Part shown: piece by piece, positions 2,162 through 50,818 of the stretch | Numbering within the stretch: position 1 is the stretch's first letter | Layout: every line of letters begins with the position of its first letter | Assembly (NCBI RefSeq): GCF_000429725.1 | Contig: NZ_AUCK01000017.1 | Span: forward strand, 1 to 64,000 | Source: Alkalicoccus chagannorensis DSM 18086 | GTDB lineage: Bacteria; Bacillota; Bacilli; Bacillales; Salisediminibacteriaceae | DNA length: 64,000 bases | Reading direction: 5' to 3' | The notes under the pieces: model-generated | Told to the model about the DNA's origin: nothing | What the model saw: only the letters and a program-made list of their open reading frames with translations | Databases searched by the model: none | Translations under genes and position numbers: made by a program

Positions 2162-4309
2162 TTATCGGGACGGGTTTTTCATCGTCAGTGCAATTCGTCC
2201 TTTCGCTGTATCTACCTCTTCAATCCAGACCGTTACTAAATCACCGACGGAGACCACGTCCATCGGGTGCTTGATAAAACGATCAGCAAGCTTGGAAATG
2301 TGGACAAGCCCATCCTGCTTCACTCCGATATCGACGAACGCACCGAAATCGACGACATTTCGAACCGTCCCTTCCATTTCCATCCCGCTTTCGAGATCTT
2401 CCATAGACAATACATCTTTTTTCAGCAGCGGTTTAGGAACATCGTCGCGGGGATCCCGGGCAGGGCGCTTCAGTGCATCGAGAATGTCCTCCATCGTCGG
2501 ACGCCCGGTACCGTAACGTTCGGCGAGTATTCCCGGTTTCTCTTTGTTGAGGACCTCCCGTGCTTGTTGAGTACCCGTATCATTCTCCGATAACCCGGCG
2601 TCCAGAAGCAGCGACCGGACGGTGTCATAACTTTCCGGGTGGATAGCCGTTTCATCCAGGGGTTCTTCGCCACCGGGAACTCGCAGAAATCCGATGCTTT
2701 GTTCATACGTTTTTGCGCCGAGTCTCGGCACCTCTTTCAATGCTTTCCTGCTGGTGTACGCTCCGCTCTCTTCCCGCTGTTTGACTATATTCGCTGCCGT
2801 TGTTTTGGTCAGTCCAGCCACATACTGCAGCAGCGCAGAAGAGGCTGTATTAACATTCACGCCGACCTGATTCACTACCGTTTCAACGACGAAGGTGAGA
2901 CTGGACGCGAGCCGCGTCTGGCTGACATCATGCTGATACTGACCGACTCCGACGGATTGAGGGTCGATCTTCACCAGCTCCGCCAGCGGATCCTGCAGCC
3001 TCCGCGCTATGGAAATGGCACTTCGTTCTTCCACTTGTAGATCCGGGAACTCTTTCTTTGCTTCTGGAGAAGCTGAGTACACGCTCGCCCCGGCTTCATT
3101 TACGATCAGATAATAGATGTCTTTGTCCATCTCTCCAATGACATCGGCAATAAACTGTTCGCTCTCTCTGGAAGCGGTGCCGTTTCCGATGGCGATCATC
3201 GTGATCTGATACTCTTTGATCAGCGTCTTCACGGTGTCAGCTGCTTTTTTCACTTCGTTTCTCGGCGGGGTGGGATAGATTACCCCTGTGTAAAGGTTCT
3301 TTCCCGTTTCGTTCACTACGGCTAGTTTACAGCCGGTCCGGTAGGCAGGGTCAACACCAAGCACGACATGGCCCTTCAACGGCGGCTGGAGGAGAAGCTG
3401 GCGCAGGTTTTTTGCAAAGAGATCGATGGCCTGCGTTTCGGCCTTTTCGGTCAATGCGCTCCGAATCTCCCTCTCTACTGCCGGCTGGATCAATCGCTTC
3501 CAGCTGTCTTCGGCCGCTTCGGCTGTCTGTGCCGCGGCTGCTCTATTCCCATCCGGCACCCAGTGCTTTTGAATAAATGCCAGAATTTCTTCATCCGGCG
3601 CCTGAAGCTTTACGCGGAGAATATCTTCTTTTTCGCCCCGATTGACGGCTAGCACCCGGTGAGGAACAAACGAGGAAACCGATTCCTGATAGTCATAGTA
3701 CATGGCGAACACTTCTTTTTCGTCTTCAGCCTTCGGTTTTTTCACGGAAATCAAAGAACCTTTGTGGAATGACTTCTCTCTGGCAAACGAACGGATGTCC
3801 GGATCATCAGCCATTCTTTCCGCGAGAATATCTCTCGCCCCCTGGAGGGCTTCTTCCACGGTTGCTACTTCCTCCTGGAGAAACCTCTCTGCTTCTGCTT
3901 CAGGGTCTCCGGTTCCGGTGACCATTAGTTCAGCCAACGGTTCCAGTCCGCGCTCTTTTGCCTTGACCGCCCTAGTACGCCTTTTCTGCTTGTACGGCCT
4001 GTATAGATCCTCGACCTCCTGCAGCTTTACGGCCTGCTTCACCGCACGTGCGAGCTCCTCCGTTAATTTATCCTGCTCCTCGATCAGCCGAAGTACTTCC
4101 TCTTTCCGTTTTTCCAGCTGCTGCTGATACTGCCACTGCTCGAGGACGGCGCGGATCTGCTCTTCATCGAGACCGCCCGTCTGTTCTTTGCGGTACCTTG
4201 CAATAAACGGGACGGTGTTACCTTCTTCTGATAAAGAAATAACCGTCTTAATGTTTTCTGTTTTCAGTCCTGTTTGTGATTGGATATGTTGAATATGTAC
4301 ATTGTCCAT
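2162..4309 (-). CDS. tex: Tex family RNA-binding transcription accessory protein
   Basis: A 715-residue protein of normal length for Tex (YdcI in B. subtilis). The order is an N-terminal helical domain, a YqgF-like RNase H fold near residues 315-440 (HVVLGVDPAYRTGCKLAVVN), helix-hairpin-helix repeats near 490-560 (VGVNVNTASSALLQYVAGL), and a C-terminal S1 domain near 640-712 (GTVRNVVDFGAFVDIG, KGRIALTMK). Tex binds nucleic acid and is linked to transcription elongation and termination; its exact role in Bacillus is unsettled. The gene stands between rsbX and the sprT-like gene. Confidence 0.95.
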   Translation of the reverse strand: MDNVHIQHIQSQTGLKTENIKTVISLSEEGNTVPFIARYRKEQTGGLDEEQIRAVLEQWQYQQQLEKRKEEVLRLIEEQDKLTEELARAVKQAVKLQEVEDLYRPYKQKRRTRAVKAKERGLEPLAELMVTGTGDPEAEAERFLQEEVATVEEALQGARDILAERMADDPDIRSFAREKSFHKGSLISVKKPKAEDEKEVFAMYYDYQESVSSFVPHRVLAVNRGEKEDILRVKLQAPDEEILAFIQKHWVPDGNRAAAAQTAEAAEDSWKRLIQPAVEREIRSALTEKAETQAIDLFAKNLRQLLLQPPLKGHVVLGVDPAYRTGCKLAVVNETGKNLYTGVIYPTPPRNEVKKAADTVKTLIKEYQITMIAIGNGTASRESEQFIADVIGEMDKDIYYLIVNEAGASVYSASPEAKKEFPDLQVEERSAISIARRLQDPLAELVKIDPQSVGVGQYQHDVSQTRLASSLTFVVETVVNQVGVNVNTASSALLQYVAGLTKTTAANIVKQREESGAYTSRKALKEVPRLGAKTYEQSIGFLRVPGGEEPLDETAIHPESYDTVRSLLLDAGLSENDTGTQQAREVLNKEKPGILAERYGTGRPTMEDILDALKRPARDPRDDVPKPLLKKDVLSMEDLESGMEMEGTVRNVVDFGAFVDIGVKQDGLVHISKLADRFIKHPMDVVSVGDLVTVWIEEVDTAKGRIALTMKNPSR

Positions 4310-4613
4310 GCTGATCCTCCCCTTCCTGTTTTAGTATACGTTCTTCTATCGACACTGCAAATAGGAGAAACCTAACCCGTCAGCATCTGCCTTCTTTTCC
4401 GCAGGCGTCTTTTCGTCGGAACAGTGTGCGCAGCAGGTGTTTGAAGGAGAGAACAAGTTTTTCGTTCTTCCGTCCAGCGTGCGGAGCCGCCGCCTTTCCT
4501 CATGACATCTTCTTCCTTACGAACCTGAAAGAGAGCCTTCCTGCATAGAAGAAGTCTTTCCCTTTCCATGTCGAAAAGAAGCCGGAGATCCGCTGGCTTT
4601 CTGCCTATATTCA
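4310..4613. other. Gene-free stretch upstream of tex
   Basis: About 300 bases between tex and the repeat at 4614. I see no convincing gene or RNA. Short open frames here lack ribosome binding sites and resemble nothing. It probably holds the tex promoter and decayed repeat sequence. Confidence 0.4.
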
Positions 4614-4827
4614 GGTTCTCATTCCCTTGTTGGGGTGAATAGACTCAAACCTGCTAAAACGCTTGTCAAATGGCATCGATGTCTCTCCCTGAAAAAACGG
4701 ACCCTTTCCAGGAGCGAAGCTCGGCGACGCCAGAGGGCTCGATCGCAGTCCTCAGGCAAGCATCCGCCTGATACGGAAGAAAAGATGCCACGGAAATGAA
4801 CCCCTACCCCAACATGTAGTATAAACC
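4614..4827 (-). mobile_element. Family A MITE-like element, copy A1 (internally shortened)
   Basis: A 214-bp copy of family A in reverse orientation, with inverted ends GGTTCTCATTCCCTTGTTGGGG and, on the other strand, GGTTTATACTACATGTTGGGG. It is flanked by TATATTCA (4606-4613) and TATTTTCA (4828-4835), a target duplication matching at 7 of 8 positions. The interior matches the copies at 30.0 and 35.3 kb but lacks about 55 bp. There is no coding capacity. Confidence 0.75.
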
Positions 4828-4860
4828 TATTTTCACAGGAGGCATCAGCTCCGAGCACAT

Positions 4861-18453: not shown

Positions 18454-18716
18454 CAATATCCTCCAAATGATATCTGTTGTTTTTTCTATAGAAACAACAG
18501 AAAGAGCTTCTTATTTGGAATACGGAGAGACGCTCTGCTTCCGCCGGACGCTTTCCGGAGGGGACTCGCTCCGCTGGCCTGGCTCCGGCAGTCGGATCTT
18601 CGAATCGTCCTGATCGTCCCGGAGTCGCCGGCTGCGCGCCGCTCTTATTTAATAAGCTACCTTGAAAATAGAACATAGGAGTTTCATCTATCATGGTGCA
18701 GCGAGGCTGCATGAGT

Positions 18717-30028: not shown

Positions 30029-30290
30029 GGCTCTAAAATAAATGTAGGGGAAAAGATTCATTTCTTTGACGTTTCTCATTCGCTTCCGGCAGACGCTTAC
30101 CAAGGGGCTTGTCCTCCACTATTATTTGCGTTGCGGAGAAGGATTTTGGACGGCGCTTCATCCCTCTGACGTCGCCGCCCTTCCCTCCTGAAAAGGATTC
30201 GTTTTTGTTTTATCTAAGAGAATCCCAGGTGCCATTTGAAAAGCGTCTGAGCATTCTGAGCCTCTTCACCCCAACATGTGAAGAACAACC
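30029..30290 (+). mobile_element. Family A MITE-like element, copy A2
   Basis: A 262-bp element beginning GGCTCTAAAATAAATGTAGGGG and ending CCCCAACATGTGAAGAACAACC. The interior matches copy A3 at 35259-35528 throughout, including GACGGCGCTT and CTGAAAAGG(A/G)TTCGTTTTTG. No clear target duplication remains, so it is probably older. It sits harmlessly between the opuA and ion channel terminators. Confidence 0.75.
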
Positions 30291-30321
30291 TATTTGTTGA
30301 GATAGGAGAACGATTCGCAGA

Positions 30322-30385
30322 CCAAAAGCACGCAGGCCCTTTTATCCTTCGTACTGGAGCTGCCAGAAGCAAGGGCTCTGCGTGC
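30322..30385 (-). terminator. Terminator after the ion channel gene
   Basis: Minus-strand stem GCACGCAGAGCCCTT...AAGGGCCTGCGTGC followed by TTTTGG. Confidence 0.7.
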
Positions 30386-30398
30386 ATCGTTCTCATTT

Positions 30399-35178: not shown

Positions 35179-35201
35179 CAGTTTACCGGCTCTTTCCAAA
35201 A

Positions 35202-35826
35202 GGCTTTGTTAAAGCCTAGTGTTGTTATAACAAAAGTACGCCTGCGGCTCTTTTTTCTGGTTCTAAAATACATGTTGGGGTAGAGGTTCATTTCCATGGC
35301 ATCTTTTTTTCCGTTTCAGGCGGACGCTTGCCAAGGGGCTTGCCCTCAACTCTCCTCGCGTTGCGAGGAGGATTTTCGGACGGCGCTTGATCCCTCTGGC
35401 GTCGCCGCCCTTCACTCCTGAAAAGGGTTCGTTTTTGTTTTTTCTTTTCAAAGAGAATCATAGGTCCGCCATTTGAAAAGCGTTTGAGCATTCCTAAGCC
35501 TAATCAGCCCAACATGTGAATGAGAACCTTTTTTCTTCGCTTGCCGCGGAGACATCCTTCCGCTCTCCCTCCCTTACATCCGGGAGGATCGTCACGCTTT
35601 CTTTATCCGCAGGCGTCTCGAAAAATAGCCTGGGCCTGCTCCGTTTCATAAACGTTTCTTTTCTTTCAGAAGGACGCAGCGAAGACCGGCGGACGCCTGT
35701 GGAAGAAGGAGATCGGAAGATCCCGCAGGGCGTAAGACCGAGGAAGCTGGAGATGTCCTCCACGGCAAGCCTGCCGAGCTGCAGCGGAGTTTTCTGTCAT
35801 TATCAACAATAAACGATAACAAAGCC
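35202..35826 (+). mobile_element. Family B MITE-like element, copy B2, split by copy A3
   Basis: Starts GGCTTTGTTAAAGCC and ends with GATAACAAAGCC, imperfect inverted ends of about 30 bp. It is flanked by an exact 8-bp target duplication TTCCAAAA (35194-35201 and 35827-35834). Removing the inserted A3 and its duplication leaves about 347 bp, equal to copy B1 at 18717-19062. The right flank is directly followed by the ribosome binding site of the BCCT gene. Confidence 0.9.
35259..35528 (+). mobile_element. Family A MITE-like element, copy A3, nested in B2
   Basis: A 270-bp element with ends GGTTCTAAAATACATGTTGGGG and CCCAACATGTGAATGAGAACC. It is flanked by an exact 8-bp duplication TTTTTTCT (35251-35258 and 35529-35536); copy B1 carries this sequence only once, which proves the insertion. 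An internal hairpin CTCCTCGC/GCGAGGAG is followed by GATTTT. No coding capacity. Confidence 0.9.
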
Positions 35827-35846
35827 TTCCAAAAAGGAGGAATTGG

Positions 35847-50671: not shown

Positions 50672-50818
50672 TAAGGCGCTGTGCCTGCCGCGCCGGGCTT
50701 CCCGCAGGGCTTGTCTTCACGTCCTTCTTCCCCTCTCCCGGGGAAGAAGGGATTTTCAGACGGCGCGGATCCTCTCGGAGTCGTCGCCCTGTATGAGAAC
50801 GCATACACTCTTATACCT
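50672..50818 (+). repeat. Family C repeat, hybrid copy C7
   Basis: The middle (AGGGCTTGTC, GGGATTTTCAGACGGCGCGG, TCGTCGCCC) resembles the core of family A, while the 3' end TGTATGAGAACGCATACACT is that of family C. It ends seven bases before a terminator. Confidence 0.6.

Follow-up and report, generated by a model that had tools for sequence, protein, structure and literature searches.

Family A, short repeats with ISL3-like ends in Alkalicoccus chagannorensis, and the hairpin core they share with other mobile elements

Introduction

Miniature elements attributed to an ISL3 transposase have a precedent in Microcystis aeruginosa, for which an excerpt of PMC11448079 describes an ISL3-type MITE of 187 bp with ends GGCTCTTCG, 8-nt duplications and a stem-loop, and proposes an ISL3 transposase from the matching ends. 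A duplication of 8 bp is called the classical ISL3 length, with TTCTTTTT as an example, in the available part of PMC7643977 and is the usual ISL3 duplication in that of PMC5559704; by term count, the available part of a review of prokaryotic MITEs (PMC10969869) contains no mention of ISL3. Palindromic repeats of a MITE-like kind, RU-3 and the Rickettsia palindromic elements, are treated in an excerpt of PMC2229807.

Within the window (the whole 64,000-nt stretch of A. chagannorensis DNA that was analysed), a family of short repeats, here family A, very probably represents MITEs moved in trans by an ISL3-family DDE transposase, with a hairpin interior that was most likely acquired. Family A is like the Microcystis MITE in its small size, GG-starting ends of the ISL3 kind, 8-nt duplications and stem-loop; set against the description in the excerpt, it differs in belonging to another phylum and in carrying a hairpin module common to other families, of which that description has none. 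It shares ends, duplication length and A/T-rich targets with ISL3 insertion sequences, but is too short for a transposase gene. ISL3-moved MITEs are already in print from Microcystis, and family A adds one more ISL3 satellite. The better lead is the hairpin core, which is present in all 35 genomes examined from the bacterial family and recurs in different transposons, and which may be a passenger, a recognition site or a regulatory structure. Searches by topic and by sequence words found no paper on the core within open-licence PMC text, and a repeat of this abundance may well be recorded somewhere beyond that text.

Family A in the window and the genome

A sequence-only reading of the window had proposed three copies, and sequence comparison confirmed that they are real and related. 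The features are as follows, with core scores from R1, a model built together with a structural alignment from 15 sequences.

4614–4827, minus strand: family A copy 1, 214 bp long, with part of the central hairpin deleted
4606–4613, no strand: left target duplication TATATTCA of copy 1 (7/8 match)
4828–4835, no strand: right target duplication TATTTTCA of copy 1 (7/8 match)
4718–4768, minus strand: hairpin core remnant in copy 1 (R1 18.3 bits, E 0.028, weak)
30029–30290, plus strand: family A copy 2, 262 bp long, its target duplication no longer present
30088–30179, plus strand: hairpin core of copy 2 (R1 70.4 bits, E 4e-16)
35259–35528, plus strand: family A copy 3 (270 bp)
35251–35258, no strand: left target duplication TTTTTTCT of copy 3, inside repeat B
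35529–35536, no strand: right target duplication TTTTTTCT of copy 3, inside repeat B
35319–35409, plus strand: hairpin core of copy 3 (R1 98.7 bits, E 1.2e-23)

Copy 1 is inverted relative to the other two window copies, and about 45 bp are missing from its central hairpin. A hairpin (CACGCAGGCCCTTTTATCC..CTCTGCGTGC) at 30320–30395 adjoins copy 2 and by eye is like one upstream of the transposase gene in two full ISL3 elements of relatives (L098 and L099).

The genome (3.52 Mb in 38 contigs, 99.92% complete) was searched with the 270-bp copy, as the sequence-only reading had suggested, giving at least 48 matches (the query itself, then E from 1.6e-130; best 40 of 98 candidates scored). With fragments merged, these matches represent at least 41 loci, two of which are in the window (merging at 450 bp gave 40 places, and 41 once two contig 11 copies 59 bp apart were split), and copy 1, recovered with its own sequence as query, adds one locus. 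Among the 41, C7:153564 represents a sister subfamily, and at C1:331494 family A and that subfamily are combined in a mosaic. About 40 copies are thus present genome-wide, a lack of further copies having been named beforehand as the outcome that would speak against a mobile family. Identity to the 270-bp query was 73–100% over the aligned parts, and the spread from 98% down to 73% is consistent with insertions of different ages.

Overall, family A is short (214–270 bp for the window copies), multi-copy and without transposase coding capacity, and is bounded by terminal inverted repeats GGTTCTAAAATAAATGTTGGGG and GGTTCTCATTCACATGTTGGG. Plasmid and phage records gave no match to the 270-bp copy. 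A search for whole-length copies in 60 genomes, including its own (15 with matches; best 12 candidates scored per genome), listed none outside the A. chagannorensis genome, the matches listed for other genomes covering interior parts alone (query positions 46–184).

Target-site duplications and nested insertions

The flanking 8-mers are as had been read from the sequence: TTTTTTCT on both sides of copy 3 (8/8), TATATTCA and TATTTTCA around copy 1 (7/8) and flanks matching at 2/8 around copy 2. Across the genome, 24 copies retain two ends, and their flanks match at 8/8 in seven copies, 7/8 in eight and 6/8 in two, so that 15 of the 24 reach at least 7/8. When left flanks were paired with the right flanks of other copies, at least 7 matches occurred in 12 of 552 pairings, a count that includes pairs of copies common to one insertion. 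The remaining 7 of the 24 have five or fewer matching flank bases, one of which (L008) matches 7/7 at length 7; for most two-ended copies, taking 7 or 9 flanking bases gave a far worse match. L001, L002 and L004, all of them 8/8 cases, lie at the same place inside another repeat and therefore count as one event, leaving 22 independent insertion events, of which 13 match at 7 or 8 of 8. The duplications often fall in T- or A-runs.

The other repeat is repeat B, a second MITE-like element, with these features in the window.

35202–35826, plus strand: repeat B, ends GGCTTTGTTA, interrupted by copy 3
35194–35201, no strand: left target duplication TTCCAAAA of repeat B (perfect 8 bp)
35827–35834, no strand: right target duplication TTCCAAAA of repeat B (perfect 8 bp)
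35688–35775, minus strand: core-like hairpin inside repeat B (R1 32.5 bits, E 4.6e-6)
35532–35623, plus strand: weaker core-like hairpin inside repeat B (R1 20.1 bits, E 0.009)

The perfect duplication that the sequence-only reading had noted at copy 3 is real, but marks an insertion into repeat B and not into the chromosome here. A repeat B without family A (L068) reads CTCTTTTTTCTTCGC, with TTTTTTCT once, whereas the window repeat B has TTTTTTCT on both sides of family A; the two sites thus form a filled and empty pair in which the 8-bp duplication is shown directly. Family A therefore has both a constant 8-bp target duplication and an empty site. The junction of family A within repeat B also occurs at L002, L004 and L009, where the left end of repeat B has other outer flanks, and from these left outer flanks (L004 and L009 being near contig ends) the composite probably spread as a unit. 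The reverse nest occurs as well, with repeat B inserted into a family A copy in L068 with the duplication TTCTTTTT.

Apparent chimaeras (L016, L020, L017 and L023) are not claimed as end-swapping, L016/L068 being a nested insertion of repeat B. An initial guess from its ends that repeat B is of the IS6 type was not kept. In one relative (L112, genome G007), such ends (GGCTCTGTTAAAG) enclose an ISL3 transposase, though no duplication accompanies them.

Full ISL3 elements in relatives

From the ends and the duplications, an ISL3-type transposase had been suggested as the source of mobility, and this is supported by full ISL3 elements of relatives, which share similar ends and 8-bp duplications. 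ISL3 matches were found in 20 of the 35 genomes of the bacterial family, and 12 of 29 ISL3 loci of relatives show both ends in a motif scan. One of the 12 (L113) was left out as having another kind of end; among the remaining 11, a perfect 8-mer duplication was present in nine and a 7/8 match in two, some of these duplications being pure A or T runs and one locus (L111) a 459-bp remnant. A full element making a duplication of another length, which would have counted against the suggestion, did not occur, as such elements make 8-bp duplications.

The element in Alkalicoccus daliensis, of the same genus, is 1381 bp long with a 418-aa frame, ends GGCTCTACAATATATGTTGGGG and GGTTCTAAGTCAATTGTTGGGG and the duplication tttttttt (L098), and the ends and duplications of L101, L102, L097, L096 and others are like it. 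The proteins of L098 and L099 carry PF01610, PF14690 and PF13542, all three of the ISL3 domains. Compared to six ISL3 elements, the left end of family A is identical at 19–23 of 25 bases, where 20,000 shuffles against one ISL3 element never exceed 16 of 25, and the right end at 18–20 of 25, the shuffle control applying to the left end only. An exact match to the right end (consensus GGTTCTCATTCACATGTTGGG) was absent from the full elements compared, the best being 20/25, and the right third of family A had no counterpart noticed in those elements. Family A thus combines ends homologous to ISL3 ends with the duplication length that full elements make.

In the A. chagannorensis genome, the two ends of the sister subfamily agree with those of the A. 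daliensis element at 22 and 23 of 25 bases. One member (L134, 298 bp) is flanked on both sides by a perfect duplication AATAAAGA. The subfamily shares the hairpin core, placed close to its counterpart of the ISL3 left end, and in the ISL3 elements of genome G021 the core likewise follows the left end. From its sequence, L135 looks like a recombinant of family A and the sister subfamily. At L139 and L145, MITE or ISL3 copies stand directly behind an end fragment of the same kind (GGCTCTAAAATAAATGT followed by GGTTCTGAAATATATG; GGCTCTAAAATAT followed by GGCTCTAAAATATATG).

The ISL3-family DDE transposase would act in trans on the terminal inverted repeats of about 25 bp, each family A insertion duplicating 8 bases. 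Family A would have started from a longer ISL3-type element, and the core was most likely acquired by an ancestral element and not born within family A.

The hairpin core in other mobile elements

The interior of family A is an imperfect hairpin of about 100 nt (core about 91–103 bases) with strong covariation, and it recurs in relatives without family A ends. R1 matched all 35 genomes of the bacterial family at E ≤ 0.001, with at least 1 to 110 matches per genome (best 114 candidates scored per genome). With stricter filters and the best 13 candidates scored per genome, it matched at least 85 genomes in an order-wide sample of 299, spanning many families, and at least 2 in a phylum-wide sample of 299, the A. 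chagannorensis genome itself being one of the 2. The window holds two further core hairpins outside family A, one at 50692–50788 (plus strand, R1 55.1 bits) and one at 18543–18632 (plus strand, R1 44.7 bits); the latter is followed by AGCTACCTTGAAAATAGAACATAGGAG, an end also found at other core copies of the genome (L017, L023) and similar to the ends in genome G017.

The core occurs in ISL3-kind elements at two different positions. All five ISL3 elements of G021 carry it between the left end and the transposase gene in the same direction (positions taken from searches; one element was read, and the fifth is known only as a BLAST fragment), while in Geomicrobium sp. JCM 19039 (L303) it is reversed and placed after the transposase stop, ahead of the ISL3 right end, so that ISL3-kind elements were entered at least twice. 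A scan of named ISL3 relatives with R1 gave 5 matches in 42 loci; in three of these (L288, L276 and L291) the core lies outside the motif-defined ISL3 ends, and at L310 no ISL3 right end was found. Among 29 further ISL3 loci of relatives, L118 of G021 matches and L122 does so weakly.

Between two ISL3 copies of G021 (L099 and L118), the blocks just outside the core differ and the core is nearly identical. At 4170–4450 of L303, the inserted core has a longer outer stem (GGGGTGTCATGGC..GCCATGACACCCC), followed by GGTTTTTCAACAGCCT, which we take to resemble an IS1182-type end; on that resemblance, the core may have arrived there on another mobile element.

Other carriers have different ends. In genome G015, the core stands upstream of a presumably IS1182-like transposase gene that carries PF05598 and was read in L314 and L315, and the downstream sequence is common to 7 of the 8 core copies examined. 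By script, all 10 core copies of G510 are between GGRGCTGTATCAAAAG-like repeats, and GAATSAATTTCATAA-like repeats surround the core in 3 of 5 copies of G003 (one more weak), 3 of 8 of G008, 4 of 6 of G010, 1 of 6 of G414 (one more partial) and 0 of 7 of G434. The GGCTCTGTTAAAG ends were found at 1 of 8 core loci of G009/G019, the script having missed the core in 4 of the 8, and a pattern scan placed a GGCTCTGTTAAAG-like end in L078, L092 and L093. Carriers tied to proteins are of the ISL3 and IS1182-like kinds only. In L315, the same terminator-like palindrome AAAGCACCTATTTTAGGTGCTTTA stands on both flanks of the IS1182-like element.

With this range of carriers, it is possible, as a tentative reading, that what spreads is the core, alone or within a small element round it, as a REP-like or other palindromic repeat with a mobility of its own, the ISL3-like ends being one vehicle among several; this can hold together with the ISL3-MITE explanation. 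Its presence in all 35 genomes of the bacterial family and in at least 85 of 299 of the order, its two positions and directions in ISL3 elements (G021, L303), and its place upstream of an IS1182-like gene in G015 and between GGRGCTGTATCAAAAG-like and GAATSAATTTCATAA-like repeats elsewhere all fit such a unit. Yet the 8-bp duplications here flank the ISL3-like ends and not the core, no end or duplication of the core's own came to light, and its same place in all five ISL3 copies of G021 needs one entry only.

Like the hairpin of an integron attC site, the core is imperfectly paired, has unpaired bases that are conserved, and ends in a stem that varies greatly; attC-type R boxes were not seen in the core by eye. 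Likened by description, the core also has the size (about 100–150 bp) and long stem-loop of the RU-3 and Rickettsia palindromic elements in the excerpt of PMC2229807, but unlike them it has carriers whose terminal repeats are of several kinds, and it covaries across the order.

Structure and covariation of the core

An alignment of 79 distinct core sequences, taken from 90 loci in genomes other than this one, has 95.4% of its stem cells paired, and for 25 of the 30 pairs there is at least one sequence in which both partners have changed. Cells changed on both sides number 489 in this alignment, which was fitted to R1, compared to 129.6 ± 11.9 in shuffles; an initial MAFFT alignment gave 54 compared to 17.8 ± 3.4, with the structure drawn from the same sequences. 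Several unpaired positions are near-invariant (A6 in 68/75, C9 in 76/77, T10 in 73/77 and T132 in 79/79), the unpaired loops TCAgCT and GGATcTTC are conserved, and a T.G pair is retained in 76 of 77 sequences.

It is quite possible, though short of probable, that the core is a functional order-wide module that is folded, has been repeatedly taken up by unrelated transposase families and serves their spread or control; its pattern of unpaired bases would be fixed, its tip free to vary and its fold perhaps that of single-stranded DNA. An unlikely alternative is that the core is a conserved structured RNA, a leader or an sRNA, with mobile elements as mere carriers. The double-changed cells, the high pairing and the conserved unpaired loops would suit an RNA, as would the preference for G.U over A.C cells (11 to 1) in a set thinned to <70% identity (16 sequences). 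In the whole set, by contrast, G.U hardly exceeds A.C (28 vs 19 of 2,202 cells), unlike the 55 vs 8 of 921 cells in a SAM riboswitch control from the same order (30 sequences, RNAalifold). Rfam at gathering score placed no family at the core in the window, and at E ≤ 1 none of the matches at six core loci was convincing (a weak tsr24 overlap at one locus had 30.9 bits compared to a gathering score of 50). By eye, moreover, a promoter-like TATAAT stands between the core and the transposase gene in the G015 element. The scarcity of G.U cells in the whole set leans towards a structure kept in DNA, but with the thinned set the G.U and A.C counts are not upheld as proof of DNA-level structure.

Transposases in the A. 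chagannorensis genome

A Pfam search of the genome with DDE_Tnp_ISL3 (PF01610) gave two matches, both on contig 10 and both parts of one decayed element. The earlier statement that no transposase is in the window therefore stands for ISL3, the window being on contig 15. The decayed element is differently ended, its end fitting family A poorly (14/25). With a full ISL3 element as query, a relic of the first third (C2:390560–390978, 71%) and a short fragment (C14:57365–57475, 74%) were also found. The PF01610 and full-element searches thus found relics and no intact ISL3-type transposase, which makes the present mobility of family A doubtful; its ISL3 partner would have been lost from this genome by decay.

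A duplication length of 8 bp does not by itself single out ISL3. That the driver was another transposase family with 8-bp duplications, of the IS6 or IS1595 type, would fit that length equally but is very improbable, as the family A ends match ISL3 elements, the L098 and L099 proteins have the three ISL3 domains, and, for IS6, PF13610 had no match in the genome at E ≤ 0.001; among the elements compared, none of the IS6 or IS1595 type had family A ends. The decayed ISL3 element on contig 10 (L057, C10:107500–112500) has an end GGCTCTTACATGGTTTTGGGG, and a second such end lies 106 bp upstream.
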